Assembly (NCBI GenBank): GCA_903911145.1
Contig: CAIWCD010000043.1
Span: forward strand, 1 to 56,403
Length of the DNA stretch: 56,403 nt
Reading direction: 5' to 3'
From: an uncultured delta proteobacterium
GTDB lineage: Bacteria > Myxococcota > Myxococcia > Myxococcales > 40CM-4-68-19
Shown: piece by piece, positions 522-53,115 of the stretch
Layout of the letters: every line of letters begins with the position of its first letter
Position numbering within the stretch: the first letter of the stretch is position 1
Notes under the pieces: generated by a model
Told to the model about the DNA's origin: nothing
Databases searched by the model: none
What the model saw: the letters and a program-made list of their open reading frames with translations, nothing else
Program-made: the position numbers and the translations under genes

Positions 522-1754
522 GTGCTGACTCGACTCCCGACCGCCGCGCTTCTTGCGCTCCTCGCAGTCGCCTGCGCGCCGCAAACCAACAGCCCGGACA
601 CCGAGTCGGCGAACGTCAAGTACACCAGCCGCGTTCACAAGATGCCCAGGCGGTATTCGGCACCGACCGCAGGGGCGAGCGGCGCGAAGCTCCAGTACTA
701 CGGTGGACATGTGATCTCAAACGTCACGATCTATGAGGTTCTCTATGGAGCCGGAACCTATGCGCCTGAGGTGAGCGGCTCTCAGATGGGAAATTTCTAC
801 TCTGCAGTCGTCCAGAGTCCGTACATGGATTGGCTCAGTGAATATGACACGACCGCAGTGTCCGTCGGGGGCAAGGCCGGAACCAACCAGCATATCGGCC
901 GCGGTAACTATGCCGGTCAGATCACGATCACCCCGAGCAGCAGCAGCGCGACGATCGATGACAGCGCGATCCAGGCGGAGCTGAATGGACAGATCAGCTC
1001 TGGAGCGCTGCCGACTCCGGATGCGAACACGATCTATATGCTGCACTTCCCCAAGGGCGTCGGAGTCACGCAGGGCGGGAGCGGCTCGTGCGCGGCGGGT
1101 GGCTTCTGCGCATATCACGGCACGTTCACGCGCAACGGTTCCAGCATCTACTATGGTGTTCTTCCGGATATGGAAGCGGGCTCCGGTTGCGACACGGGAT
1201 GCGGTGGAGATCCAACTCCGTTCAACAACCAGACCTCAGTGGCCTCACACGAGTTGATCGAGGCGGTCACGGATGCAGAGGTTGGACTCGCCACCACCAA
1301 TGGTCCGCCGCTCGCCTGGTATGATCAGAACAACGGCGAGATTGGTGACATCTGCAATGCGCAGCAGGGGGCGTTCGTCGGCGCTGATGGCGTGACGTAT
1401 ACCGTTCAGCAGGAGTGGTCGAACAGCCAGCAGGCCTGCGTCGATCACGGAGTCGGAGGGGCCGGTGGCGGCAGTGGCGGCGGCTCGGCAGGTGGCTCTG
1501 GTGGCGGCTCGGCGGGTGGCTCTGGTGGCGGCAGTGGCGGCGGTTCGGCGGGTGGCTCTGGTGGCGGCTCCGGTGGTGGAAGCGGCAACTCGTGCGGCCA
1601 CAATCTCTGCACGACCGGCGCGGCGTTGACCCCGTCTTGCGATCCCTGCGCGGCCCGGGTCTGCGGGGCTGATTCCTACTGCTGCGATACCGCCTGGGAC
1701 AGCACCTGCCAGAGCGAAGTCGGGTCGATCTGCGGTCAGACCTGCGGAGGGTAG
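522..1754 (+). CDS. secreted Zn-protease-like lipoprotein with Gly-Ser linker and Cys-rich tail
   Basis: This 410-residue protein begins at GTG 522 with a lipoprotein signal (hydrophobic core, then VACAP, Cys18), so it should be anchored in the outer membrane or exported. Residues about 45-310 form one domain containing SHELIEAVTDAE near residue 243. This HExxE-like motif recurs in bacterial secreted proteins with a zincin-like look, but the second metal-binding His of a classic HExxH is absent, so proteolytic activity is uncertain. A low-complexity GGSGGGSAGG linker (about 1456-1590) follows, then a roughly 50-residue Cys-rich module (CGHNLC...CCDTAWDSTC) of a type common at the ends of myxobacterial surface proteins. 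The 3' end overlaps the convergent alkB-like gene by 19 bp. The assignment as a secreted surface protein is firm; the enzymatic role is open. Confidence 0.8.
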   Translation: MLTRLPTAALLALLAVACAPQTNSPDTESANVKYTSRVHKMPRRYSAPTAGASGAKLQYYGGHVISNVTIYEVLYGAGTYAPEVSGSQMGNFYSAVVQSPYMDWLSEYDTTAVSVGGKAGTNQHIGRGNYAGQITITPSSSSATIDDSAIQAELNGQISSGALPTPDANTIYMLHFPKGVGVTQGGSGSCAAGGFCAYHGTFTRNGSSIYYGVLPDMEAGSGCDTGCGGDPTPFNNQTSVASHELIEAVTDAEVGLATTNGPPLAWYDQNNGEIGDICNAQQGAFVGADGVTYTVQQEWSNSQQACVDHGVGGAGGGSGGGSAGGSGGGSAGGSGGGSGGGSAGGSGGGSGGGSGNSCGHNLCTTGAALTPSCDPCAARVCGADSYCCDTAWDSTCQSEVGSICGQTCGG

Positions 1755-3304
1755 AGCGCCCGCATTCCACTGTTCGCGTTCGCCTTCATCGCAAGTGCGC
1801 GCTCCGCGTCGGTCGCATAGACGCGGTCCCACGCGAGCACCTTCGGCGTCATGATGAAATTCCAGAGCGGCGGAACCAGCGCGACCACAAGCGTCGTCAG
1901 ATACCCATTCAGCATCATCGGCGCGTCCGGGTAAGGTCTGAGATCAGGGTAAGGTACCTCTCCCTGCGCGTGATGGTGCGAGTGCCGCGTCAGGTTGAAC
2001 ATCGTCCAGGAGCTGATCCGTCGGTTGGTATTCCAGGAATGGTGGGGCTGCACAGGTGTCGCCGGGTCGCGGACCATCCCATAGTGTTCCATGTAGTTGA
2101 CGATCTCGAGCAGCGCCTTGCCCCATAGGGCGCAGGCCACGAAGAATCCCACCGCGCGCAGACCGCCCATGGCGAAGGCGAGGCACACGAGAATCAGGCT
2201 CAGGGCGTGCCCGCGGAGGAATCGGTTGTTCCATCCCAAGGGAGCCAACTGAAGCTTTCTCAATCGCTCGGCCTCGAGGTGCCACGCGCTGAGATTTCCT
2301 CTCCAGGTCGACGTCACCATATGTGCATAGACGTTGCGGCCGCGCGGCGCAGTGGCGGGATCTTCGCTGGTCGAAACGTAGCGGTGATGGCCGTAGACGT
2401 GCTCGATGGCGAAACTCGTGTCGAAGCTGAAGGCCAATAGGCAGCGGCCAATCAACATCGAGATCTTGTCCCAGGTGCGGTGCGTGAGTTCGTGGGCGGG
2501 GATCGTTCCAACCATGCCGATCATCAGGCCGGTCATCACCCATGCCGAAACGTGATGTCCGAACGCGGTCGCATCGCGAGCGGAGATGACGTCGTAGCCG
2601 GTGAGACGGGCGACGAGCGCGCCGAAGCCGAGAGGGTCGCCCGAGGAGACGCTCCAGACGGAAGCGAAGACGATCAGCGAGAGCAGAGGCAGGGCCATCC
2701 AGAGTTGGGCCGTGAGGATCTGGGGATGGCGATAGATCGGCGTGCTGGTGTCATCGCCGAGGAAGGCATCGCCAAGAATATAGGCGGTGAGCACCGAGAG
2801 GAGTCCCGCCGTGGTGTAGCGCCCGCCCGCGAGCAGCGCGGTCGCGGCGAAGAGGCCGATGAGGTGGAAGAGGAAGTATTTCAGGTAGTCGAACAGGCCG
2901 GCCTCTGCGGCCGCTGCGGTTGGTGCCGCGGGCGTTGTCGCGCTCGCGCGAGCGGCCTGCGGGACGATGCGGTTGCTTGCACGCACGCGTGCGGGCCGCT
3001 CAGACATCTCCACTTCCACGCGAACGTCTCCGCGCGGAACGCTCTGGCACGCGAGGATGTACCCGGCCTTCAACTCCTCATCGCTGAGCAGGTAGCTTGC
3101 CTCGGTCAGCTCGCTGACCTCGCCTGAGACGAGCTTGCACTTGCACGTCCCGCAGCCGCCGACGCGGCAGCTGTTGGGGAAGTCGATCCCCTCGCGCAAG
3201 GCTGCTTCGAGAAGCGTTTCGCTACGCTTGGACGCCACGCGGCGGCCGTTGATCTCGATGATCAGCTCGCGCTTTGCTGTCGAGTGCTGTTCCGCTGTTG
3301 CCAA
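1736..3304 (-). CDS. ferredoxin-AlkB fusion (alkane/fatty-acyl monooxygenase family)
   Basis: The 522-residue product joins an N-terminal plant-type [2Fe-2S] ferredoxin (Cys46, Cys51, Cys54 and Cys86) to a membrane di-iron hydroxylase. The hydroxylase part carries the AlkB-type histidine motifs HELTH (271-275), EHVYGHH (301-307), NYMEHYG (403-409) and RHSHHHA (440-446) among several membrane helices. Enzymes of this family insert oxygen into terminal methyl groups of alkanes or acyl chains at the inner membrane, taking electrons from a rubredoxin or ferredoxin; here the electron carrier is built in. The start is TTG 3304, placed by a GGAGAG ribosome binding site just upstream. It is divergent from an AraC-type regulator, which probably controls it. 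The substrate cannot be read from sequence. Confidence 0.9.
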   Translation of the reverse strand: MATAEQHSTAKRELIIEINGRRVASKRSETLLEAALREGIDFPNSCRVGGCGTCKCKLVSGEVSELTEASYLLSDEELKAGYILACQSVPRGDVRVEVEMSERPARVRASNRIVPQAARASATTPAAPTAAAAEAGLFDYLKYFLFHLIGLFAATALLAGGRYTTAGLLSVLTAYILGDAFLGDDTSTPIYRHPQILTAQLWMALPLLSLIVFASVWSVSSGDPLGFGALVARLTGYDVISARDATAFGHHVSAWVMTGLMIGMVGTIPAHELTHRTWDKISMLIGRCLLAFSFDTSFAIEHVYGHHRYVSTSEDPATAPRGRNVYAHMVTSTWRGNLSAWHLEAERLRKLQLAPLGWNNRFLRGHALSLILVCLAFAMGGLRAVGFFVACALWGKALLEIVNYMEHYGMVRDPATPVQPHHSWNTNRRISSWTMFNLTRHSHHHAQGEVPYPDLRPYPDAPMMLNGYLTTLVVALVPPLWNFIMTPKVLAWDRVYATDAERALAMKANANSGMRALYPPQV

Positions 3305-41727: not shown

Positions 41728-43029
41728 TCAGGTCGTCTGGTTCGCGCGACAGCAGAGCAGCGAGTGGGACAATCCGAGGTCGTGCCACTCCTCGCTGACC
41801 GAAAGGCCCGCCTGCGCGAGGAGATTGCGCATTCGCTCGGAGTGATACATGCGGCTGTTCCCATTCGCGATGCAGGCGAAATAGATCGACGTGGCGATGA
41901 CGCAGTATCGAGAAGCTTCGTACCGCTGGCGATTCCAGAACGTCTCGAGAATGAAGACGCGCGAGTCCGGTCGCATCGCCCGGCGCACCTTGGAGAGGAT
42001 TTCGACGACCTGAGATTCGGAGAAGCAGTCGAGGAATTGACTCATCCAATAGACATCTGCGCCCGCCGGGAGTTCGCTGCCGTTCTCGAGGAGATTGCAG
42101 GCGTGGAAGCGCAGTCGACCATTTGCAACCCACGCGGCCTGTTCCTCCGCGGCCATCGCGATCTGTCCCGGCAGGTCCACGATCGTCTGGGTCAGTCCGG
42201 CATGCGCGCGCAGGCACTGCTCTGCCCACCGTCCGGTATTGCCGCCGATATCAACGAGAGTCGCGACCGGCTGATTAAATACGTGACGGTCACAGGTATC
42301 GAACACGTTGTCGGAGTAATGGTGGTCGAAGGCAAACCAGGCCTCTTTCACCTCGGGCGAGAGGCCGGACAGGCCCTCATAGACGGTATTCCACTTTCCC
42401 AACTCTCTTAACCCAGCCGGCATTCCACTCTTCAGCGCGTCAGCGAGGTGGAATGCGCCGCGGTAACAGACGTGGTGGCTGAACTCCGTGTTGACGCGGG
42501 TGAGCGGGTCCTTGAGGAAATAGACCCCCATCTTGGTGATGGTGAATCTACCCTCGTGATAAGCGCAGAGCCCTGACGCATATCCCGACTCAAGCAGCAA
42601 CTCCGCGGCGTAGAGCGAGGTCTGGCACGCGAGGCTCGCCTCGGATGCGAGCACCCCATCCGTACCGGCCCGATAGGTCCAGTCGAGCAGTCCGCTATCG
42701 CGCAGCGCACGCGCGGCCTGAAACATCAATGGAGCAAAGGCGAGCTTCTGCGCCTCATATCGAGCGAGCTCTGCGGATACGAGCGGGTCCGCGACTCGAC
42801 CTCTGCGTGCGGTGCCGCCGCGACTCTTCCGCGCACTCTCGTCATTCATCATGAGGGCATTGCTCGCTTCCTTGCGCGCGACAGTAGCCGCAAGGAACCT
42901 CTCTGGGGACGGGGCGCGGCGATGCGTCGCTGGCCAACGACGCTGATCTCCATCGATGGAATGGAGCGTCTCGCCGCGGAGATCGATTTCGATCTCAACC
43001 CTGTCCGTGAATGCGTGCGCGTTGCTCAT
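41728..43029 (-). CDS. SAM-dependent O-methyltransferase-like protein
   Basis: The C-terminal about 190 residues contain the Rossmann methyltransferase fold: VATLVDIGGNTGRWAEQCLR (motif I), TIVDLPGQIAMA, GADVYWMSQFLDCFSESQVV and VFILETFWNRQRYEAS. The preceding helical region (AFAPLMFQAARALRDSGLLD) fits the dimerisation domain of plant-type and hydroxyneurosporene-type O-methyltransferases. ATG 43029 has AAGGG at a good distance, giving 433 residues with an unusual 59-residue N-terminal extension; ATG 42852 is the alternative matching family length. The substrate is unknown, perhaps a natural product or pigment. Confidence 0.85.
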   Translation of the reverse strand: MSNAHAFTDRVEIEIDLRGETLHSIDGDQRRWPATHRRAPSPERFLAATVARKEASNALMMNDESARKSRGGTARRGRVADPLVSAELARYEAQKLAFAPLMFQAARALRDSGLLDWTYRAGTDGVLASEASLACQTSLYAAELLLESGYASGLCAYHEGRFTITKMGVYFLKDPLTRVNTEFSHHVCYRGAFHLADALKSGMPAGLRELGKWNTVYEGLSGLSPEVKEAWFAFDHHYSDNVFDTCDRHVFNQPVATLVDIGGNTGRWAEQCLRAHAGLTQTIVDLPGQIAMAAEEQAAWVANGRLRFHACNLLENGSELPAGADVYWMSQFLDCFSESQVVEILSKVRRAMRPDSRVFILETFWNRQRYEASRYCVIATSIYFACIANGNSRMYHSERMRNLLAQAGLSVSEEWHDLGLSHSLLCCRANQTT

Positions 43030-43387
43030 GAGAACCCTTCAATTGAATCGCTGCTTGCGGGTAATCAGGAACAGACCTGCATAGAAGGCCCCGGCCGGCG
43101 ATCTCTGCAGCGCGACCGCGCCAACGCGCGCACTTCACCCCGTGCCGTCCGTTGCGTCACGCAGTTAGATCTCTTCGCGCGGTGGCGCGTTGAGACCGGA
43201 AGAGGGAGGCAGGCTCCCTGACTTTCGGAGGTTCACAATGACGCACGCGCCGCCGCGTCGATGGCGGGCATAGCGCGGTTCAGAAACCAATCACTGCCGC
43301 ATGAACCCGCGCGATCCGCTCGCTGCGGTCGAAGCACCGGTGCGTCCGCAATCAATCAACATTCAGTTCACCAGCGAAACGGTCCCT
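43030..43387. other. intergenic region with a tiny leader-like ORF
   Basis: This roughly 360-base spacer between divergent genes has no full-size gene. It holds a short hairpin (GGGAG 43204-43208 with CTCCC 43214-43218). Just after it is an 11-codon frame at 43238-43273 (MTHAPPRRWRA) with a strong GGAGG six bases upstream. That could be a leader peptide for the AgmX-like gene, but chance is possible. Confidence 0.3.
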
Positions 43388-44719
43388 ATGCCGAAACCTG
43401 TTCAACCGTCCAAGAAGGCCCTCCATGTTGGCGTGGTTCAAGAGGGCCGCTTCATCGAGGATCGCTGGTTCCTCGACCAGCATCCGATCACGGTTGGGAC
43501 GGCGGCGAAGAATACATTCGCGATGCCGCTCTCCGCGCTCGGCATCAGCCAGCCGCTCTTCACGCACAACAAACAGGGGCAGCTGCTGCTGCATTTTAAT
43601 GAGAACGCGCGCGGTAGGATCACGATCAACAATCGCGACTATGCGCTCGAGGACGCGCGCCGCGAGGGACTGGCAATCGCGAACGCCGGCCATTTCGAGA
43701 TCCCGTTCACCGAGTCGATGCGCGGCCGCATTACGCTGGGCGAAGCCTCTTTCGTCTTCAACTTCTCGTCTGCGCCGCCGAAGCCTTCAACGCCAAAGCT
43801 ACCGAGGGAGATCCGCGGGACGATCTGGAACATCACCGACCACACCTTCATGTCGGTGCTCAGCGTCAGCATGGTGATTCATACCTTTCTTGTCGGAACG
43901 ATCTCCCGCCGCGACCTGCCGCCTGAGACTCCGTTGTTCGACCAGACAGACGATTCTCCCTGGCAGAAGTTCATCTTTCCCGACAAGCCGCCCCCCGAAA
44001 AGGAGGAGCCGAAAGTTGAGCAGCTCAAGGACACTCCCGTTGCGAAGAGCTTGAAGATGGACACGAAGACGGAGCCCGCGATGGATTCTGTCGAGCATAA
44101 GCGCGACGTGCAGAGGAAGGTCGCGCAGACGGGACTTATCCATTTAATCGGCGCTGTCAGCGGCAGCGGCGGCGCGCTTGGCAACGTGTTCGCGTCGACA
44201 GACAGCTTTACCAACGACATCAGCGCCGCGCTCAAGGAGGCCGGCAACAACCTGGCGATCGCAAGCACAGGGGCTGCCCCGACGCGGCGAGGAGAAGACA
44301 GCGGGAGCGTCGCGCAGATCGGCTCCGTCATTGGCACGCGCGGCGCCGGACCGCTGAAAGTGCACGAGAAGCAGGACGTCGCGGTAACGGCCGGTGTCCT
44401 CGTCGACGATGCGGAGATCGACTCTTCGACTGTCGACAAGGACGCGCTCTTCCGCGTCATCAGGCAGCATCTGCCCTCGGTGAAGGGCTGCTACGAAGCG
44501 CAGCTCAAGCGGAGTCCGATGCTGCGGGGCAAACTGGTCATGCACTTCACCATCGCAGCCAGTGGCCACGTCACCGATGTTGGCGCCGACTCGAACAGCA
44601 TGGGCTCTGACGAGGTCGAGGCCTGCATCATCCGCCTCATCAAGAGCTGGGTATTCCCGTTCAAGCCCGAGTCCGACACGACCGTTTCCTTCCCGTTCCT
44701 CTTCACGCCGGCCAATTAG
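43388..44719 (+). CDS. AgmX/PglI C-terminal domain protein
   Basis: About 443 residues from ATG 43388 (ATG 43301 is an alternative). The N-terminal domain (FLDQHPITVGTAAKNTF, RGRITLGEASFVFNF) is the cytoplasmic sensor-like domain usual in this family. A single helix (MSVLSVSMVIHTFLVGTI) follows, then a Pro/Glu/Lys linker (PPPEKEEPKVEQLKDTP). The C-terminal AgmX/PglI TonB-like domain has VIRQHLPSVKGCYEAQLKR and EVEACIIRLIKSWVFPF. AgmX-like proteins span the inner membrane and reach into the periplasm in myxobacterial gliding/energy-transducing machinery. No ExbB/ExbD genes are adjacent. Confidence 0.88.
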   Translation: MPKPVQPSKKALHVGVVQEGRFIEDRWFLDQHPITVGTAAKNTFAMPLSALGISQPLFTHNKQGQLLLHFNENARGRITINNRDYALEDARREGLAIANAGHFEIPFTESMRGRITLGEASFVFNFSSAPPKPSTPKLPREIRGTIWNITDHTFMSVLSVSMVIHTFLVGTISRRDLPPETPLFDQTDDSPWQKFIFPDKPPPEKEEPKVEQLKDTPVAKSLKMDTKTEPAMDSVEHKRDVQRKVAQTGLIHLIGAVSGSGGALGNVFASTDSFTNDISAALKEAGNNLAIASTGAAPTRRGEDSGSVAQIGSVIGTRGAGPLKVHEKQDVAVTAGVLVDDAEIDSSTVDKDALFRVIRQHLPSVKGCYEAQLKRSPMLRGKLVMHFTIAASGHVTDVGADSNSMGSDEVEACIIRLIKSWVFPFKPESDTTVSFPFLFTPAN

Positions 44720-44911
44720 AGCACAGCTCATAACCTCTCCCGTCGCCCGGCCGACCGGTGGCCGCCGCCTCGCCGCGTCTTCGTGATCGAGCACGCCACC
44801 TGCGCGCAGAACGTGCTGCCGACGTTCGGCGACCGCAAGCCGCGAGCTTGAACGGGTTGAGCGCGAGCTTTACGAGGGCGGCCTCGCCACGCTCGACGAG
44901 ATGGTGCTGAA

Positions 44912-44929
44912 ATAAGACCAACGTCTTAT
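44912..44929. promoter_or_regulatory. perfect 7-bp palindrome upstream of the cytochrome operon
   Basis: ATAAGAC (44912-44918), a 4-base CAAC loop and GTCTTAT (44923-44929) form a perfect inverted repeat about 50 bases before the cytochrome b561 start. AT-rich against its surroundings, it could be an operator or a small hairpin in the 5' leader. It overlaps the stop of a short open stretch (ERELYEGGLATLDEMVLK) that has no start and looks like a gene remnant. Confidence 0.4.
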
Positions 44930-44980
44930 CGTATTGGAGGGGTGGTCCGGCAAGTGCATCAGGCAGGGACAGGAGAAACT

Positions 44981-46012
44981 ATGAAACCCGTCAAGGTCTG
45001 GGATCTCTCTGTGCGCAGCTGCCACGCTCTATTTGGTCTCCTGATCCTCGGTGCGTTTCTCACCTCGGACGACGACGGCGATTCGCTGCTGCATATGCGC
45101 CTCGGCCTGGTGCTCCTCGCGGTCGTGCTCTTTCGCGTGGTCTGGGGTTTCGTCGGCAGCAGGCACGCGCGATTCACCGACTTCGTCCGCGCTCCTGGTG
45201 TCGTCATCGAGGCGTTGCGGCAGATGGTGCGCGGGCGTCCGGCGCACGTCGTCGGGCACAATCCTGTGGGTGCGGTGATGGTGCTCGCGCTGCTGGTGAC
45301 GATGTTTCTGACCTGTGCAACCGGCGTCCTCATCGCGTTGGGCCCGGAGTGGAGCGGTCCTCTCGCGCTGGGCAAGGGTGCGGCGTCGTCGCTGCGCGAA
45401 CTCCACGAGATCTCCGCCTGGGCGCTGCCCGTGTTGCTCGCACTGCACGTAGCGGGCGTGATCGTGTCGTCTCTCCTCGAGAAGCAGAACCTGATCGCCG
45501 GAATGATCACCGGATACAAGCGCGGGCCCGAGGAGGGCGCGGTCGATCGGCTGCCGCCGCTGCGCGCGCAGCCGGTTCGGCTTGCGACCGCCCTGCTGGT
45601 GGGGCTGGCGGCGCTCCTGCTGATCTGGCGGTTTCTGCCGACCGGAGCAGCGGAGGCCGCCACCATTCCTGCGGGGGGCCTGCTGGGCCGATATGAGCAG
45701 CGCGCACGTGCAGAGGAGCCGGGCTTTCGCGGCTTCGACGGCGCCCGCGGGCGCGCGCTCTACTTTGGTGAGCACGACAGCAGCAGCGGCAAGGTTTCGT
45801 GCGCAACGTGCCACACCCAGGATCCACGACAGAGCGGCCGCTCGCCGGTCGGGCGCGTGATCGAGCCTCTCGCGCCGTCGGCCAACTCCGCGCGCTTCAC
45901 AGACGCGGCCAAGGCCGACAAGTGGTTCGACCGCAACTGCAAGCAGGTGCTCGGGCGCGCCTGTACCGCCAGCGAGCGCGGCGACTTCGTTACCTGGCTC
46001 AGCTCTCTCTAG
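44981..46012 (+). CDS. cytochrome b561 fused to SHP-type cytochrome c (DUF1924)
   Basis: The 343-residue product starts at ATG 44981, six bases after AGGAG. Residues about 1-218 are a four-helix di-haem cytochrome b561 of the Ni/Fe-hydrogenase type, with candidate haem histidines (His15, His93, His142, His156) and WDLSVRSCHALFG at the N-terminus. Residues about 235-343 are an SHP/DUF1924 cytochrome c with one CATCH haem site (274-278). It ends KWFDRNCKQVLGRACTASER, where Asn319-Cys320 matches the Asn haem ligand and adjacent Cys of sphaeroides haem protein. In other bacteria b561, SHP and DHC are separate genes of one operon. Here b561 and SHP are one chain, and DHC follows. Confidence 0.9.
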   Translation: MKPVKVWDLSVRSCHALFGLLILGAFLTSDDDGDSLLHMRLGLVLLAVVLFRVVWGFVGSRHARFTDFVRAPGVVIEALRQMVRGRPAHVVGHNPVGAVMVLALLVTMFLTCATGVLIALGPEWSGPLALGKGAASSLRELHEISAWALPVLLALHVAGVIVSSLLEKQNLIAGMITGYKRGPEEGAVDRLPPLRAQPVRLATALLVGLAALLLIWRFLPTGAAEAATIPAGGLLGRYEQRARAEEPGFRGFDGARGRALYFGEHDSSSGKVSCATCHTQDPRQSGRSPVGRVIEPLAPSANSARFTDAAKADKWFDRNCKQVLGRACTASERGDFVTWLSSL

Positions 46013-46041
46013 CCCGCGATTTTCTCTCGACGGAGACCACC

Positions 46042-46560
46042 ATGCGACCTTCATTCCAGACATCACTCGTCCTCTCGTTGTCGGCGCTGCTGCTGCTCCC
46101 TTTCGTGGCGCGCGGTGACGACGATCGCGAAGAGGGCGAGAGCCGCGCGCTCCCGGCCGCTGTGCGGGCGACGCCGCAGTGGAAGCAGTACGCGAGCGAG
46201 TGCGGGAGCTGCCACCTTGCGTTCCCTCCGCAGATGCTGCCTGCCCGCTCGTGGACCGCGCTGCTCAACGGGCTCTCGAACCACTTCGGGCAGAACGCCG
46301 AGCTGGGTGCTCCCGAGCGCAAGCAACTCGGCGAGTTCCTCTCTGCCCACGCCGGCCGCGATGTGAGCGGGCCAGCGCCGCTGCGCATCACCGAGCTTGC
46401 CTCCTGGCGGCGGGAGCATCGGGAGCTGGCCGACACGGTCTTTCTACGCAAGGCGGTCGTGAGCCGGGCGAACTGCGCTGCGTGCCATCCGGGCGCCGAG
46501 CGCGGCGCCTTCGGCGAAGACCAGGTCAAGGTCCCGCGCGATGGCCCGCCCGGCCGCTAA
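46042..46560 (+). CDS. diheme cytochrome c (DHC family)
   Basis: The 172-residue product begins at ATG 46042 with GGAG upstream and a signal peptide ending near VARGDD. Two haem-attachment sites are present, CGSCH (54-58) and CAACH (145-149), in the arrangement of diheme cytochrome c DHC: SECGSCHLAFPPQMLPARSW and SRANCAACHPGAERGAF are typical. DHC passes electrons to SHP, consistent with its place 29 bases after the b561-SHP gene. The physiological acceptor (oxygen, NO or other small ligand on SHP) is not settled for the family. Confidence 0.92.
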   Translation: MRPSFQTSLVLSLSALLLLPFVARGDDDREEGESRALPAAVRATPQWKQYASECGSCHLAFPPQMLPARSWTALLNGLSNHFGQNAELGAPERKQLGEFLSAHAGRDVSGPAPLRITELASWRREHRELADTVFLRKAVVSRANCAACHPGAERGAFGEDQVKVPRDGPPGR

Positions 46561-47671
46561 CGTGAACGGCCCGCGCGCGAAACCCACGGCGCGCAGCGCC
46601 TCGAGTGGCGCGCCCGTGCTCCGCTGGCTCACGCTCGCTCTCTGCCTCTCGGTGGCGATCGTGCTCGCGCCGCTCACGGCGCCGCTCGTACTTGCGGTCT
46701 GGTTCGCCGATCTCCTCCGGCCCGCGGTGCGCAAGGTCGAGCGCCTTTTCGGTGGGCGCAAGCGCGCCGCCGGCGCTCTGTTGGTCCTCGTTTCTCTCGT
46801 GGTCGTTCTCCCTCTTATCGGCATCGGCTTTCGGTTCGCCGGCAACGTGAGCGAGTTTCTCGCGCAGCTGAGAGCCGCGCTCGCAGGACAGGGCTCGTTG
46901 GACAGCGCGCTGCTCGGAGGCGGCACCGTGGGCGCGCATCCGGAGCTGCCCGGCTGGAGACAGATCGACTGGGCAACGTTGGCGCGGCAGCATGGAAGCA
47001 ACGTCTGGGGCGCGCTCAGCGCGGTCGCGCGGGCTTCGACGAGCGCGGCCATCGGGGCGCTCGTCTTCGTCGCTGCCCTCTATACCTGCGCCGTGGATGG
47101 TGAACGGGCCTACGCCTGGCTCGAGGAGCACGCGCCGCTTCCACCGGCGACGCTCGCGCGCTTCGCCAGCGCGTTTCGCGAGACCGGGCGTGGGTTGATC
47201 GTCGCGGGTGGCGGTACCGCTCTCGCTCAGGGAGCGTTGGCCACGGGCGTCTATCTCGCGGTGGGGATCCCGCGCGCACTCCTGCTCGGTCCGCTCACGG
47301 CGGTGTGCGCGATCATTCCCTTCGTCGGCACCGGGCTCGTCTGGATCCCGCTGGCGATCACGCTCCTCGCGAGCGGCCACCCCTGGCGCTGCGCCGTGGT
47401 CGTGCTCATGGGAGTCGTCGTCCACACGCTGGTCGACGATCTCTTGCGTCCGCTGCTCGCCCGCTTCGGTAAGCTCCAGCTGCCCGCGTTCGTGGTGCTG
47501 GCTTCGATGCTCGGCGGCGCCATCGCCTTCGGACCTGTGGGCGCGCTGCTCGGACCGCTGCTCGTCCGCCTCTGCGTCGAGGCACTGAACCTGGTTGACG
47601 CCCCGCAGATCGTCTCCCCCTCGCCGTGTGCCGCGCCTCTCGAACCGGAACCTCGCGAGCGACGCTCGTGA
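46541..47671 (+). CDS. AI-2E family permease
   Basis: The 376-residue polytopic protein overlaps the DHC gene by 20 bases, so it is co-transcribed. It has the PF01594 pattern: paired N-terminal helices (ALCLSVAIVLAPLTAPLVLA), a periplasmic segment, then FRETGRGLIVAGGGTALAQG, LLGPLTAVCAIIPFVGTGLV and the end FVVLASMLGGAIAFGPVGAL. Family members include TqsA exporters and Na+/H+ antiporters. Its function with cytochromes is unclear. The C-terminal about 35 residues are low-complexity. Confidence 0.9.
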   Translation: MARPAANVNGPRAKPTARSASSGAPVLRWLTLALCLSVAIVLAPLTAPLVLAVWFADLLRPAVRKVERLFGGRKRAAGALLVLVSLVVVLPLIGIGFRFAGNVSEFLAQLRAALAGQGSLDSALLGGGTVGAHPELPGWRQIDWATLARQHGSNVWGALSAVARASTSAAIGALVFVAALYTCAVDGERAYAWLEEHAPLPPATLARFASAFRETGRGLIVAGGGTALAQGALATGVYLAVGIPRALLLGPLTAVCAIIPFVGTGLVWIPLAITLLASGHPWRCAVVVLMGVVVHTLVDDLLRPLLARFGKLQLPAFVVLASMLGGAIAFGPVGALLGPLLVRLCVEALNLVDAPQIVSPSPCAAPLEPEPRERRS

Positions 47672-47725
47672 CCGCTCGTGGTGTCGCGCGGTTGTCTCCC
47701 TGCCCGAATCCCAGGAGGCGTCGCG

Positions 47726-47824
47726 ATGGAGAAGCTCGCAGGTAGATTCGAGCAGCTGGCAGTCAGCGCGCTCATGCTGCTGCTGACCGTGGCGACGTTT
47801 GCGCTGAGAAAGCGCGCCGCCTGA
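47726..47824 (+). CDS. 32-residue single-pass membrane protein
   Basis: ATG 47726 follows AGGAGG at seven bases, one of the best ribosome binding sites in the window. The product has an amphipathic start (MEKLAGRFEQLAVSA), one hydrophobic helix (LMLLLTVATFAL) and a basic end (RKRAA), like a small subunit of a respiratory or transport complex. It is 54 bases behind the AI-2E-type gene on the same strand, so it probably belongs to the cytochrome operon. Confidence 0.6.
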   Translation: MEKLAGRFEQLAVSALMLLLTVATFALRKRAA

Positions 47825-47910
47825 ACAGCTCACGCGGTGGAGCGGCTCTTGAAGTTCCTATCCGCCCGACCTTGACGCCAGGAAGGAACACGGCAGCGCC
47901 GACAGTCGCG

Positions 47911-48378
47911 TTACTCGCACCCCACCGCGGGCGTGCTGCCGGCTGAGGTTACAGCCTGGCAATGCTTGCCGCCCACGCAGTCGAGAGAGTCTACCCAGTG
48001 GCCGCCCGTGCACGTGAGCACGGCGAGCGATTGCGTTCCGTCCGCGCCGTCCACCTCGCAGGCCATGGCACGCTCTGAGACGCAGGCGGAGTTGAGGCTC
48101 GCCCAATCGGCTCCCTGGTTGCACTGCACCTGCGTGGAGTCGTTGGCCACGTGCTCGCAGCTGCTGGTGCAGGTCATCACCTGCACATAGGAAGCATTCG
48201 CGCCGTCCAGGCAGTGGAGGACCGGGATGCCCGCCTGGCCGGTGACCGCCGCTCCGCAGACCAGAACGCCTGGCGTGCACGCGGCTCCAACGACGGCCGG
48301 GCCGCTTCCGCCGCAGCCAGCGCATAGAAGGAGAACGAGTCCAATCCACGGAGTCGACTTTGTAGAGCGAGGAGACAT
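47911..48378 (-). CDS. cysteine-rich lipoprotein
   Basis: From ATG 48378 the 155-residue product has a lipobox (LVLLLCAGCGG) and about ten spaced cysteines in a repetitive pattern (GIPVLHCLDGANASYVQVMT, CTSSCEH, LAVLTCTGGHWVDSLDCVGG), suggesting two related disulfide-bonded units. The longer upstream frame is not needed. Function unknown; probably surface-exposed. Confidence 0.75.
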   Translation of the reverse strand: MSPRSTKSTPWIGLVLLLCAGCGGSGPAVVGAACTPGVLVCGAAVTGQAGIPVLHCLDGANASYVQVMTCTSSCEHVANDSTQVQCNQGADWASLNSACVSERAMACEVDGADGTQSLAVLTCTGGHWVDSLDCVGGKHCQAVTSAGSTPAVGCE

Positions 48379-48614
48379 TGGCGAGTCCGCGGTGAGGAGA
48401 ATGGAGCTCACGGTATACGACCCGCCAGCAGGAGATGAACGATTCGATTCCGTGCGAGCGGCGGCTTCAACCGGGCATTGCGCCGAACGTGAGCGCACGT
48501 TGTCGACGACCTGTACTGCGGATGACGAGGTCGGGACTTCTGCTTTCAGACGCGAAAGACGAACCAGTTGTCGCCGCAACGAGGAGATCTGCTCCCGCCT
48601 CGGATGGAATTGCG

Positions 48615-48830
48615 GGGGGCTACTGGGAACTCGATCGCCACGACAAGAAACTCAAGGCGGTCGTGACTGCCGGGCAGAGTGATTCGGAGTTTGTCGCCAT
48701 GACGATGGCCTCGCAAGCTTTCCGCGGCTGGTGTCCGCAAAGCGCGCGGACACCAGCCGCGATGGCATTTCCCGTTCTTGACGATCGCGGGCCGCTGGTC
48801 GCCGTGTTCGAACTGTTCTCGAAGAAGCAG
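48615..48830 (+). pseudogene. GAF-domain fragment
   Basis: Within a gene-poor stretch of about 700 bases (48379-49076), one frame reads GYWELDRHDKKLKAVVTAGQ then AAMAFPVLDDRGPLVAVFEL. These are the opening and closing strands of a GAF sensor domain, with the middle shortened. No start, no flanking kinase or receptor part, and it runs directly into integrase-like sequence in another frame. It looks like a scar of a sensor gene. Confidence 0.4.
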
Positions 48831-48838
48831 CGCATCTC

Positions 48839-49043
48839 TCTCCCGTGGATCTGCGCCGCACGTTCGGGGCGCGCCTTCGCGCTGCCGGTGTCGCCGTGCC
48901 CTCCCTCGTGGCCGCACGCAGACAGCCAGATGGCCGCGAGCAGGTCTACGCGAAGCTTCCGCTTGCGCTCCTGCGCGACCGCCTCGCCGCCGAGATTTCG
49001 TGGGACACCGGTGGGACAAACAGCTGCGCAACGGCGGGAAACA
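48839..49043 (+). pseudogene. tyrosine recombinase (integrase) C-terminal remnant
   Basis: The frame reads VDLRRTFGARLRAAGV, the box II region of phage-type integrases (normally HxLRRT; here His is Val). After a degenerate stretch comes GREQVYAKLPLALLRDRLAA, where Tyr (codon about 48947) stands in the catalytic-Tyr context. The LGH motif is missing and there is no N-terminal domain. Next to a tRNA-like sequence, this fits the end of a decayed integrative element. Confidence 0.5.
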
Positions 49044-49076
49044 GCGGGCCCGGTGAGACCGCTAACCCCTTGAAAC

Positions 49077-49151
49077 TGGCTCCTCGGGTTGGATTTGAAC
49101 CAACGACCCGCGGATTAACAGTCTCTGCACCGAACTATCCAGCTCCCCGGA
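49077..49151 (-). tRNA. degenerate tRNA-Asn(GTT)-like sequence, likely att-site remnant
   Basis: On the minus strand the 3' half is a perfect tRNA-Asn: loop CTGTTAA with anticodon GTT, the T-arm GTTGG-TTCAAAT-CCAAC, acceptor strand CCGAGGA, then G and an encoded CCA. The 5' half does not match it. The acceptor 5' strand TCCGGGG has two mismatches in the middle, and only two of five anticodon-stem pairs form. A 3'-half copy beside an integrase remnant is the usual footprint of integration into a tRNA gene. It is unlikely to be a working tRNA. Confidence 0.55.
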
Positions 49152-49256
49152 ATGACGACAGAATGCGTCCGCTGAGGAAGGCGACTGTAGCGCCGGTGCA
49201 ACAGCAAGGCCCTCGCGGCCGCCGCTGAGCGTCGCCAGACCGCTGCCGGGAGCCCA

Positions 49257-49613
49257 TCAGCGGTCTGGCGTTCCTTCTCTCTCGAGCAGCGCCCGGAGCG
49301 CAAGAGCCAGGTCGGGCAGGTTTCGTTCGGCAGTATCGAAGACGATGCGAACGCTGGTTTCGAAGTATTGATGCGCGAGCACGTTGCGCATTCCGACGAT
49401 GTCCGCCCAGGGGATCTGCAAGTGGCGAACGCGAACCTCGGGAGGCACGTGCCGCGCAGCCTCCCCGATGACAAATAGGTTGTGCTCCACTGCATCGATT
49501 GCTTTCTGATCCGCCGCGAACTGTTCGTGGCTCAATCCCGCCGTGTACTCGGCGATCCGATCGATGGCGGAGAGGATGTCGCTGATGCGCAGGCGCCAGT
49601 CTCTAGGCGACAC
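49257..49613 (-). CDS. HepT-like HEPN ribonuclease toxin (DUF86)
   Basis: The 118-residue protein has the HEPN/DUF86 fold with the Rx4-6H catalytic motif RNVLAHQYF and an upstream conserved helix (VEHNLFVIGEAARHVPPEVR). HepT toxins cleave RNA and are silenced by MntA, which modifies a nearby Tyr. It starts at GTG 49613 and overlaps the MntA gene by 11 bases in the usual antitoxin-first order. Confidence 0.9.
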   Translation of the reverse strand: MSPRDWRLRISDILSAIDRIAEYTAGLSHEQFAADQKAIDAVEHNLFVIGEAARHVPPEVRVRHLQIPWADIVGMRNVLAHQYFETSVRIVFDTAERNLPDLALALRALLEREGTPDR

Positions 49614-49893
49614 GCTGGGCTTCTCTCAAGATGCGATCGCGGAGCTGCTGTTTGATCCCATCGGCAGGCACGAGATCGACCGTGCGGTCCAGGATTGTCC
49701 CCAGCAGTCGCTGGAGGCGCACAAACTCGAACAGCCCGACCGGGCCGTCGAACTCCACCAACAGATCCACGTCGCTGTCCTGCCGAGCCTCTCCGCGCAC
49801 CGTCGAGCCGAAGAGCGACAGCGAGCGCACAAAGAACGCCCGCAGCTCGTCGCGATGCTCGGCCAGCCGCCGCACCACCTCTTCACGGTCCAC
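49603..49893 (-). CDS. MntA-like minimal nucleotidyltransferase antitoxin
   Basis: The start is GTG 49893, about five bases after AAGGAGG, giving 96 residues. The GSx10DxD nucleotidyltransferase motif is intact: LFGSTVRGEARQDSDVDLLV. MntA neutralises HepT by adding AMP to the toxin. The gene is directly followed by the hepT-like gene. Upstream of it is the cut-off VapC remnant, so this module appears inserted next to an older toxin-antitoxin locus. Confidence 0.9.
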   Translation of the reverse strand: MDREEVVRRLAEHRDELRAFFVRSLSLFGSTVRGEARQDSDVDLLVEFDGPVGLFEFVRLQRLLGTILDRTVDLVPADGIKQQLRDRILREAQRVA

Positions 49894-49954
49894 AAGAGCC
49901 TCCTTTCCCCAGCACTCTAACATCCGAACGGGAAGCATCGACTATCTGCGCGAG

Positions 49955-49996
49955 CTACGTGGATATCAGCACCTTCGTGTCGAGAACGATTCTCAC
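49955..49996 (-). pseudogene. VapC (PIN-domain toxin) remnant of 13 codons
   Basis: A GTG overlapping the stop of the antitoxin gene (GTGA) opens MRIVLDTKVLIST and ends at TAG 49955-49957. This matches the first strand of PIN toxins (MRIVLDTNVLIS), where the Asp is the first metal ligand. Everything after is missing; the MntA/HepT pair begins about 60 bases on. The antitoxin is thus left without its toxin. Confidence 0.65.
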
Positions 49997-50268
49997 TGGT
50001 GGCGTCGTCCTGCGCGCGCCGCCTTGATCTCAGCGTCGATGTCAGCGGACGAGAGCTTGTCGAGGCCACGGGCCTTTGAGCGCTCCTCCGCCTGGCGTAG
50101 TGCGTGGAACGCCCGGGCGCGCGGCAAGCGCGACTCCTCGAGCGCGGTTCGGAGCGCGAGCGCGCGCAGGTACGTACCAACACCAAGCCCTTCGCGGTCT
50201 GCCTGGGCCGCGATCGTCTCGTGCTCTTCCTTGCTCAATCGGATTTGAAGCGTCAGGCTGCGGGCCAT
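49993..50268 (-). CDS. VapB-like ribbon-helix-helix antitoxin (orphan)
   Basis: From ATG 50268 (GGGAGG six bases upstream) the 91-residue product opens with an RHH DNA-binding motif (SLTLQIRLSKEEHETIAAQA, then EGLGVGTYLRALALRTALEE). Its C-terminal half is a toxin-wrapping tail (LDKLSSADIDAEIKAARAGR). It should bind its own promoter, where a palindrome lies at 50287-50301. Its stop overlaps the start of a truncated vapC, so it is now an orphan antitoxin. Confidence 0.8.
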   Translation of the reverse strand: MARSLTLQIRLSKEEHETIAAQADREGLGVGTYLRALALRTALEESRLPRARAFHALRQAEERSKARGLDKLSSADIDAEIKAARAGRRHQ

Positions 50269-50286
50269 GCGGCACCTCCCGTGTGT

Positions 50287-50301
50287 ACGTACATTGTACG
50301 T
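50287..50301. promoter_or_regulatory. palindromic operator candidate of the vapB-like gene
   Basis: ACGTAC-ATT-GTACGT is a perfect 6-bp inverted repeat about 20 bases before the antitoxin start. Antitoxins of this type bind such sites for autoregulation. Confidence 0.55.
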
Positions 50302-50489
50302 GTGCGTCCCGGGAAGCGCAACACCCTCTCTGCCGTCAACGGGGACCGATGCCGGGCAGCTGATTTCGGACCCATCGTCTGACTCTGTAGTACGATGCAT
50401 AGACAGAAGGCGACGTCCGATGGTACAAGCAAAAGCGATATCGGTCGCAAAGACCCATCCGATATCGGAGCAGAACTCAAGAGGTGAAC

Positions 50490-51845
50490 ATGAACTCCGC
50501 CCCCGCCAAGACTGATGAAAACGCCGCTCGGGCGGCACCTCCGCCTCGAGCTGGAAACGGCGGACAAAATGCTCCGGCCCCTCTCTCCCAACGACGAGAT
50601 AGAGGGGCCGGAGCATTTTGTCCTGAGAGGGAGTCGGAGGTTCAGGGTGATGAGGACAGTGGTGGGGCGGGGGCGGAGGGTGAAAAGGAGATCGGTTCTT
50701 GGAGGGGAAGGTTGACAGCCAGGGATCGGGAACTGGTGGGTCATATGGGGTTGGTCAGGTATCTAAGAACAAATCAAATTACAGAAATGGTGTTTCAGGG
50801 AAGAGCGCAGTCGGTGGTTTCAGCAAGGCTTGGGGAGTTGTCGCAGCGTCATGGAAATACGAGAGCGTTGCTGAAGAAGCTCTGGTTCGTGAGCAGCGAA
50901 GGAAAGCGGGTGCAGGTCTGGTCGTTGACGCCGTCTGGATACGCGCTGGCAGAGGAGGTTCTGGGTCGGGAGTTGAAGATTCCAAGGCATGATGTTGCGT
51001 CGCAGTTTCTGGAGCACGCGACGGGTGTGAACGAGCTGTACGTCGCACTGACGAAGACGCGCGAGACTCCGCGAGTCGGAACCGCGGTCGATCGCCGAGG
51101 CAAGCCTGCGAACGACTTCGCGCGATTGCCGACGGCATTTCGCTGGCGGCCGTCGGAGGAACTCGATCTTCCGTTTCAAGAGTTCGTGCCCGAGGAGAAC
51201 CGGCAGTACGAGCGGCGTTTGCAGCCTGATGCGCTGCTCGAAGATCCAGCGCGGAAGGTCCGATATCTGATCGAATACGAGACAGGCAGCGCATCGGTGC
51301 GCAACGCGCAGCATAAGTCGGCGACGTTGACCAAGCTGATCCGGTACGTGCAGTTCTTGGCCGTTCCCACCGGGCGCGGCGGAACGTTCTACGACCGCCA
51401 TTTCGGCGATCAGCTCAAGCCCGTCCTGCTCTTCATGACCCGCACGACGGCGCGGCGGGATAGCATCAAGGAAGCAGTGAAGGAGTTTCTTGAGGAGCGG
51501 ACACATCGCATCGAGGTTCGCGTTGCGACCGTGGAGGAGATCGGCCGGGAGCTTCGCGTGCAGCTCCTCCGAGAGAACGCACAAGCGCCAGCCGCGGCGC
51601 CGGCTCCGATTCCCGGCATCCAAGCTGGTCCGCCACGGCCTCCGCCGGGCTGGGCGATGCTATCGCCGAGGGAGATCACCCTGCTGCACGGTGTCCTGTT
51701 GGAGACGATTCACACGCTCAAGATGGTGCGGCATACGGTGCGAGAAGGCAGGCCCGTCGTGATGGAGCCGCGGTATCCGCAGAACATCGAGCCGGCCGAG
51801 CAGTTGCTGCGCAAGTTTGTCGAACAGAAACCCAACGGTTCATAA
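50490..51845 (+). CDS. replication-relaxation family protein
   Basis: From ATG 50490 (GAGG five bases upstream) the product has 451 residues. The first about 75 are low-complexity. A winged-helix region (LTARDRELVGHMGLVRYLRT ... VQVWSLTPSGYALAEEVLGR) and the replication-relaxation core (RRLQPDALLEDPARKVRYLI, EYETGSASVRNAQHKSATL) follow. This family is carried by plasmids and integrative elements. A second start, TTG 50712 behind GGAGGGG, would skip the low-complexity part and place the 23-bp inverted repeat at 50562-50623 in the leader. It forms an operon with the small RHH-like gene 12 bases on. Confidence 0.82.
   Translation: MNSAPAKTDENAARAAPPPRAGNGGQNAPAPLSQRRDRGAGAFCPERESEVQGDEDSGGAGAEGEKEIGSWRGRLTARDRELVGHMGLVRYLRTNQITEMVFQGRAQSVVSARLGELSQRHGNTRALLKKLWFVSSEGKRVQVWSLTPSGYALAEEVLGRELKIPRHDVASQFLEHATGVNELYVALTKTRETPRVGTAVDRRGKPANDFARLPTAFRWRPSEELDLPFQEFVPEENRQYERRLQPDALLEDPARKVRYLIEYETGSASVRNAQHKSATLTKLIRYVQFLAVPTGRGGTFYDRHFGDQLKPVLLFMTRTTARRDSIKEAVKEFLEERTHRIEVRVATVEEIGRELRVQLLRENAQAPAAAPAPIPGIQAGPPRPPPGWAMLSPREITLLHGVLLETIHTLKMVRHTVREGRPVVMEPRYPQNIEPAEQLLRKFVEQKPNGS
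50562..50623. repeat. perfect 23-bp inverted repeat
   Basis: Arms 50562-50584 and 50601-50623 are exact reverse complements (beginning GGACAAAATGCTCCGGCC) around a 16-base loop. It lies within or just before the replication-relaxation gene. It has no U-tract, so it is not a standard terminator. An origin, transfer or protein-binding structure of the mobile element is possible. Confidence 0.85.
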
Positions 51846-51857
51846 CCAGGAGTTGCA

Positions 51858-52106
51858 ATGGCAAATCGTGTCAGCAGTGTCAGCGAGGCATACCAGCTCT
51901 TCAATGTGCGGCTGCCGCTCGGCGTGCTCGAGCGCATTCACGCGTATGTGGACCATTTGAACAGCATGCAGCCGGGGATCGATGCGAACGCCAGCATGGC
52001 GGCGCGGATGCTGCTCATGCGCGCGCTCGAGCAGGTCGAGGCGGAGATTGGAACGGCGAAGGGGCCGAAATCGGGAGCGCGGGAGCCTATTCGAGGCAAG
52101 AAGTAG
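51858..52106 (+). CDS. small ribbon-helix-helix-like protein
   Basis: The 82-residue product starts at ATG 51858 behind AGGAG and follows the replication-relaxation gene closely. FNVRLPLGVLERIHAYVDHL and NASMAARMLLMRALEQVEAE read like an RHH DNA-binding dimer (strand, then two helices), as in CopG/MobC-type plasmid proteins. It likely controls or assists the upstream gene. The basic tail (GPKSGAREPIRGKK) fits nucleic acid binding. Confidence 0.7.
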   Translation: MANRVSSVSEAYQLFNVRLPLGVLERIHAYVDHLNSMQPGIDANASMAARMLLMRALEQVEAEIGTAKGPKSGAREPIRGKK

Positions 52107-52284
52107 AGAGCAATGGCGATTGCTGGTGATGGTGAGCCGATAGGACGGACAAGGCGCGATCTTACGTCTGATAATTTCTCTTCCGTCAACTTGACTCCCC
52201 TCGGTCACGCCGCGCGGAGCCTGCCGGCACATAGCGCGAGGCCCGCGCAGCGCGTGAGCGCAGGCGTGTAGTGCTCCCCTGAAA

Positions 52285-53115
52285 TCAAGCCACGCGTGAA
52301 ACTTCCTGCTGCCGATATTCGCGTGGGCTCTGATATCCCAGCGCCGAGTGAGGTCGCTCTTCGTTGTACCAGCCGATCCAGCGGGTGACCGCGGCCTTCG
52401 CTTCTCGAAAGCTCGCGAAGTTCTGCTGCCAGGTGCACTCCTCCTTCAGCGTGCGGAAGAAGCGCTCGATCATCCCGTTCTGCTCCGGCGTATATGGCGT
52501 GATGTATTCCTGCGACAGGTTGTAATCGCGGCACGCGGCGCGGAATCTGCGGCTCTGGAAGATCAGTCCGTTGTCGCTGCGCACGACTGGCGTAATGCCC
52601 TCGGGGCGAAGCGTTCCGAACCGAGCAATGCAGGCTTCTTCGAGAGCGCGCTCTGCCTCTTTCGCGCGCCCGCGAAGGGCGAACTCGAAACCAATCAGCT
52701 CGCGGTCGTGGCAATCGATCACCGCTGCCAGATGGCCCCAGCCGTCTCGGCCGCACGGGATATGCGTGACGTCCATCGCCCAGCGCGCGTTGCTCTTCGC
52801 AGCGCGGCTCGTGCGCACCTGCACACGCGGGCGCGGTGTCGTCCGGCGCTGGTGCACAAACCAGCGCTTCAATCGCAGCACGCGATAGACCGCCTTCCGA
52901 TTTACCTGCACCCCATTGACTCGCAGCATCGCCCAGATGAATCGATATCCATAGGTCGGGTGCTGCTCGATTAATCGCCGAATGCGTTCAACCAGCAGCT
53001 CGTCCATGACGGGCAATTGCACGGGTCCATCGGTTTCGGGACGCATCGACGAGCGCGGCACGCGGAGAATTCGACAAACCGCGCGCTCTGAGAGATCGAC
53101 CAGTCCTTCTCTCAC
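52285..53115 (-). CDS. IS3-family transposase OrfB (DDE integrase core)
   Basis: The 276-residue product has the HTH_21 segment (IRRLIEQHPTYGYRFIWAML) and an rve DDE core: ARWAMDVTHIPCGRDGW (first Asp), VVRSDNGLIFQSRRF (second Asp) and EQNGMIERFFRTLKEECTW (Glu). The tail YNEERPHSALGYQSPREYR is typical. It starts at GTG 53115, overlapping the orfA stop by four bases (GTGA). It is therefore likely made by translational coupling rather than a slippery frameshift. All three catalytic residues are present, so the element may be active. Confidence 0.93.
   Translation of the reverse strand: MREGLVDLSERAVCRILRVPRSSMRPETDGPVQLPVMDELLVERIRRLIEQHPTYGYRFIWAMLRVNGVQVNRKAVYRVLRLKRWFVHQRRTTPRPRVQVRTSRAAKSNARWAMDVTHIPCGRDGWGHLAAVIDCHDRELIGFEFALRGRAKEAERALEEACIARFGTLRPEGITPVVRSDNGLIFQSRRFRAACRDYNLSQEYITPYTPEQNGMIERFFRTLKEECTWQQNFASFREAKAAVTRWIGWYNEERPHSALGYQSPREYRQQEVSRVA

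Follow-up and report, generated by a model that had tools for sequence, protein, structure and literature searches.

In all likelihood, the locus at positions 44981–47824 of the DNA stretch analyzed here (56,403 nucleotides in total, termed the window) is a myxobacterial SHP (Sphaeroides haem protein) operon, in which a tethered SHP would be fed by quinol, a dihaem cytochrome c (DHC) would serve as electron relay, and a permease appears to have replaced the regulators. The first gene encodes cytochrome b561 and SHP in one chain. This fusion is the usual form of SHP in Myxococcota, where it is present at 12 of 13 loci. The gene that follows DHC starts at the position that a response regulator gene occupies in related loci, however it encodes an AI-2E permease. 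The features of the locus, all on the forward (+) strand, are as follows.

44981–46012, +, cytochrome b561-SHP fusion gene, one uninterrupted frame of 343 aa
45800–45814, +, CATCH haem c attachment motif, fusion residues 274–278, from the sequence
45935–45940, +, N319-C320, the Asn sixth-ligand position and the first disulfide cysteine, from alignment to Rb. sphaeroides SHP 1dw0
46042–46560, +, DHC gene, 172 aa, PF09626 (E-value = 2.2e-34)
46541–46560, +, overlap of 20 nt between the DHC and permease genes, both frames read as open
46541–47671, +, AI-2E (UPF0118) family permease gene, 376 aa, PF01594 (E-value = 1.7e-31)
47726–47824, +, open reading frame of 32 aa with one predicted transmembrane helix and a perfect AGGAGG seven bases before the ATG

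Architecture of the b561-SHP open reading frame

The translated sequence displays two conserved domains by Pfam analysis. The cytochrome b561 domain (Ni_hydr_CYTB, PF01292) encompasses residues 6–178 (E-value = 3.5e-24) and the DUF1924/SHP domain (PF09086) is at residues 248–340 (E-value = 4.5e-34). Sequence matches to the PDB show similarity of the SHP half to the solved Rhodobacter sphaeroides SHP, 1dw0 (E-value = 3.2e-22), and to the solved Methylophilus cytochrome c″ (E-value = 5.2e-16), and of the b half to the E. coli hydrogenase-1 cytochrome b (E-value = 2.4e-6). As judged from sequence, DUF1924 is the SHP family, and 1dw0 and the Methylophilus protein are its nearest solved structures.

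The window fusion was aligned with five relatives from the collection scan. W315, N319, C320 and C328 of the SHP unit, and H15, H38, H142 and H156 of the b561 unit, are invariant in this six-sequence alignment; C328 is the second disulfide cysteine and the partner of C320. The haem-binding residues C274, C277 and H278 are invariant in the alignment and also in all SHP rows counted. The C-terminal half thus displays the fold, the CxxCH motif, the Asn-Cys pair, the second disulfide Cys and the Trp of the SHP family, and the N-terminal half the four-helix unit with histidine ligands for two b haems that is typical of PF01292. The presence of a b-type cytochrome and SHP in a single frame, with DHC apart, makes the gene a CytB/SHP chimera, and the adjacent positions of cytochrome b, SHP and DHC are those of an SHP operon.

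An AlphaFold2 model of the fusion, which was built from six sequences and is of moderate confidence (pLDDT 71.7, pTM 0.54), shows five membrane helices at about residues 9–28, 32–59, 95–120, 132–167 and 196–218, and a hydropathy scan agrees. The fifth helix (196–218) lies between the b561 and SHP domains. By Foldseek, the modelled SHP part compares well with 1dw0 (TMt 0.76); the match of the modelled b part to the cytochrome b of formate dehydrogenase-N is weak (E-value = 0.087, TMt 0.57). The odd number of helices, together with a short positively charged N-terminus on the inside, suggests that the SHP domain is periplasmic and that the c-type haem would be attached there.

The DHC sequence has a signal-like helix at its N-terminus and two haem motifs, CGSCH and CAACH. 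The PF01594 match covers residues 29–350 of the permease and is therefore near full-length, which places the protein in the AI-2E family. An earlier note on this DNA had read b561 and SHP as one chain with CATCH and Asn-Cys at the ligand site, followed by DHC and by a permease that overlaps it; each of these readings holds. The note also named a frameshift or assembly error between b561 and SHP as the event that would undo the fusion. Such an error was checked for and is excluded, since 11 other Myxococcota loci likewise encode b561 and SHP as a single chain, at 47%–63% identity.

Distribution and phylogeny of the fusion

A PF09086 search that covered 195 Myxococcota genomes shows strong matches at 12 loci in 11 genomes, the window included. 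Eleven of these loci are b561-SHP fusions and the exception is L028. A further fusion, L056, is found in a Kofleriaceae MAG, which gives the total of 12 fused loci out of 13 with the window counted. The L028 locus has a b561/DHC chimera together with separate SHP and DHC genes, and is a second locus in genome G047, which also carries the fusion locus L019. Weak DUF1924 matches are present in frames of 414–589 aa in three other Myxococcota genomes (L029, L030 and L031), and these are probably other c-type cytochromes.

The fusion had been presented in the earlier note as a departure from a norm of three genes. This does not stand, as it is the normal form in Myxococcota and had been published before: Meyer et al. 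(2010; PMC2909971) described a CytB/SHP chimera with DHC separate in Rhodospirillum rubrum and Magnetospirillum magnetotacticum. As in the window, a single chain holds both cytochrome b and SHP in these chimeras, and DHC is a separate gene of the same operon. The SHP operon of Rb. sphaeroides (CytB/mDHC chimera, SHP, sDHC) also resembles the window locus in its components, its Asn ligand and its disulfide, however there cytochrome b is fused to DHC and in the window it is fused to SHP (PMC2909971).

SHP is found in 43 of 274 genomes sampled from the class of a Thiobacillaceae MAG and in 11 of 337 sampled from the class of an Alphaproteobacteria MAG. Almost all loci read in these two samples have SHP as a gene of its own, and fusion of cytochrome b to DHC is frequent among them; L156, an alphaproteobacterial locus, is the one b561-SHP fusion. 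The L153 locus, from the sample of the Thiobacillaceae MAG's class, displays SHP and DHC in a single frame of 337 aa (positions 1343–2353, minus strand), in which a shortened SHP leads directly into the signal-like helix of DHC. This is either another kind of fusion in the SHP module or an assembly indel.

In a tree of the SHP domain, all 12 myxobacterial fusions form one clade (support 97/81) apart from L156, and the branches starred in the tree require the fusion label to change at least twice; the tree is based on a short alignment and does not settle the deeper branching order. Since the myxobacterial clade is supported and is separate from the sampled alphaproteobacterial fusion, the b561-SHP fusion appears to have evolved at least two times. 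The ligand residues differ as well. All myxobacterial fusions have the Trp/Asn pair and L156 has Arg/Asp, which is the pattern reported for Rhodospirillaceae (PMC2909971). In R. rubrum SHP, Asp replaces Asn and the Trp is lacking (PMC2909971). Unlike R. rubrum and L156, the window and the other myxobacterial fusions thus have both Trp and Asn, and they branch elsewhere. With Trp/Asn and Arg/Asp on separate branches, there were probably two origins of the fusion with different ligand types.

Proposed electron route

SHP has been described as the only known oxygen binder among c-type haem proteins, with a role that is not yet settled (PMC2909971). It binds both O2 and NO, and NO dioxygenase activity has been reported; the proposed electron route is quinol-CytB-DHC-SHP, in which the reduction of SHP by DHC has been demonstrated for Rb. 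sphaeroides (PMC2909971). In Allochromatium vinosum, the DUF1924 gene, two DHC genes, a cytochrome b561 gene and a two-component regulator of the SHP cluster are strongly induced with pyrite as compared with sulfide (PMC11267869). Expression of the SHP module in that species is thus sensitive to redox or metal conditions.

In the window locus, the b561 unit would hold two b haems through its four conserved membrane histidines and draw electrons from quinol to the periplasmic side. The fifth transmembrane helix would bring the chain to the periplasm, where the C-terminal SHP domain would gain its c haem. Periplasmic DHC is expected to relay the electrons, and SHP would therefore be held beside its donor. 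Reduced SHP would then drop the Asn ligand and bind O2 or NO, and the SHP chain would most likely function as an NO dioxygenase or oxygenase that is fed by quinol. The genes are presumably co-transcribed. A promoter and terminator scan shows no sigma-70-like site, and terminator-like matches are below chance.

The presence of b561 and SHP in a single chain, with both domains set at the periplasmic face by the tether, may suggest direct reduction of SHP by the b561 half with DHC dispensable, which would make the fusion a self-sufficient quinol:SHP reductase. The earlier note similarly deduced a direct path from membrane quinol to SHP. This is improbable, however, as a separate DHC gene is kept in every fused locus and electron transfer from DHC to SHP is the step demonstrated in Rb. 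sphaeroides (PMC2909971). For these same two reasons the fusion may be a mere tether that places SHP beside the electron chain.

The permease in the regulator position

In 10 of the 10 other complete fused Myxococcota loci, a response regulator and a sensor kinase are directly 3′ of DHC. This regulator pair is the majority form in SHP operons and is neither universal nor required for membership; it is absent after the window DHC. The Archangium sp. MAGs L052 and L053 are like the window in having the fusion (63% identity), DHC and the same overlap position after DHC, however a response regulator and sensor kinase are found where the window has the AI-2E permease.

The position of the overlap is conserved. 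In L018, L022, L024 and L027 the DHC and response regulator genes share 20 nt, from the regulator ATG to the DHC stop, and the permease ATG of the window is at the same place. The DHC of these four loci has a C-terminal extension that matches that of the window, e.g. PRDAPPPR in L018 and PRDGPPGR in the window. The regulator pair of L018 has its best NCBIfam matches, which are below the cut-off, to CzcR/CzcS-type heavy-metal subfamilies. When the first permease codons beyond the overlap are compared with regulator DNA for residual response regulator sequence, in-register identity is slightly raised, but 8 to 42 of 299 frame-kept shifts do as well at 36 nt.

The simplest reading is that the operon descended from a regulator-bearing form and that the regulators were then replaced by the permease. 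Where the relatives' operon ends with the response regulator and sensor kinase, the AI-2E permease would here take up the same translationally coupled slot. The permease does occupy the regulator position in this assembly, which is the only one in which the DHC-permease junction has been seen.

The 66 other SHP loci were read with profiles for b561, SHP, DHC, AI-2E, response regulator and sensor kinase. The AI-2E profile recovers known AI-2E loci, and with it no AI-2E gene (0/66) is found within the stretches examined. An apparent AI-2E neighbor in L028 has no AI-2E profile match and resembles an EamA-type transporter by inspection. The nearest relative found of the window permease, only 40% identical, is in another myxobacterial genome and outside any SHP locus. 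The earlier note was thus correct that the permease association is unusual, but it missed the regulator-position context. A genome search that it proposed shows that the fusions recur and that a linked AI-2E gene and the small open reading frame do not, the latter as seen at the other Myxococcota SHP loci.

Members of the AI-2E family have been shown either to export AI-2 or to function as Na+(Li+)/H+ antiporters (PMC7221264, PMC5379678, PMC9134010), and SHP operons elsewhere may hold transport genes such as czcD (PMC2909971). The permease may accordingly be viewed as a functional partner of SHP that would move a substrate or ion (an AI-2-like signal, Na+/H+) tied to SHP redox, with the 32 aa protein as accessory subunit. 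The 20 nt overlap implies translational coupling of DHC and permease, and both lie within one G+C-rich island. However, the lack of an AI-2E gene at the other SHP loci and the lack of conservation of the 32 aa sequence make this partnership unlikely. AI-2E genes are also present in 56 of 60 genomes of the order, so that a chance neighbor is easily obtained. A more specific proposal, that the regulators were swapped for a translationally coupled permease that works with the tethered SHP and couples a quinol-driven, O2/NO-dependent reaction to export of a substrate or product, is more doubtful still.

The least credible alternative is an assembly chimera, where an SHP-DHC fragment was joined to a permease that does not belong to it and the regulators exist after all: the DHC-permease junction is in just one genome, however the DHC and permease frames are both open across the overlap exactly at the relatives' regulator start, G+C is equal on either side of the junction, and a full-length counterpart of the SHP-type kinase is not found elsewhere in the 99%-complete source genome, where the best kinase match is to the kinase core alone (36%).

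The 32 amino acid open reading frame

This is the sole Shine-Dalgarno-led open reading frame of 25–60 aa in the window that has a membrane-grade hydrophobic stretch, and it may therefore be a gene. No convincing relative is found in 11 genomes of the family, and no relative is seen at other Myxococcota SHP loci. The tiny membrane protein of the earlier note is thus present as an open reading frame with a predicted transmembrane helix and Shine-Dalgarno sequence, but it is not conserved in the genomes and loci searched.

Base composition and chromosomal surroundings

The G+C content of the cassette is 0.693 and the mean of the window is 0.637 (SD 0.019, equal-length stretches). All three cassette genes are raised, with DHC at 0.703 and the permease at 0.708. 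No SHP match is found in any other genome of the family among the sampled Myxococcota genomes. The base composition and this absence are consistent with transfer of the entire cassette, together with the permease, from a myxobacterium of higher G+C content. Loss of SHP elsewhere in the family, instead of acquisition, may also account for the absence.

Several genes of mobile type are nearby, at window positions 49257–53115.

49257–49938, −, HepT and MntA-like pair
50484–51845, +, replication-relaxation protein
52285–53115, −, IS3-type transposase

A degenerate tRNA-Asn-like sequence is at about 49080–49155 on the minus strand. It has a GTT anticodon, a T-arm and CCA, and the acceptor pairing is poor by eye; it is not called by ARAGORN or Rfam. 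It is possibly the remnant of an integration site. Rfam shows no match at E-values up to 1 within 43000–50000. Between a GltG-like gene and b561, at about 44755–44916, the sequence resembles a decayed gene end (ELYEGGLATLDEMVLK*) that is interrupted upstream. A methyltransferase at 41728–43029 (minus strand) strongly resembles the FlxJ family, with a score of 432 bits that falls below the 560-bit cut-off.

Significance

If the assembly holds, the replacement of regulators by a permease represents a clean gene swap at a conserved overlapping start. The myxobacterial fusions are single membrane proteins with the canonical Asn ligand, and they appear to have evolved apart from the Asp-type alphaproteobacterial chimera. 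They would make the proposed quinol-to-SHP chain testable with one purified protein and DHC.
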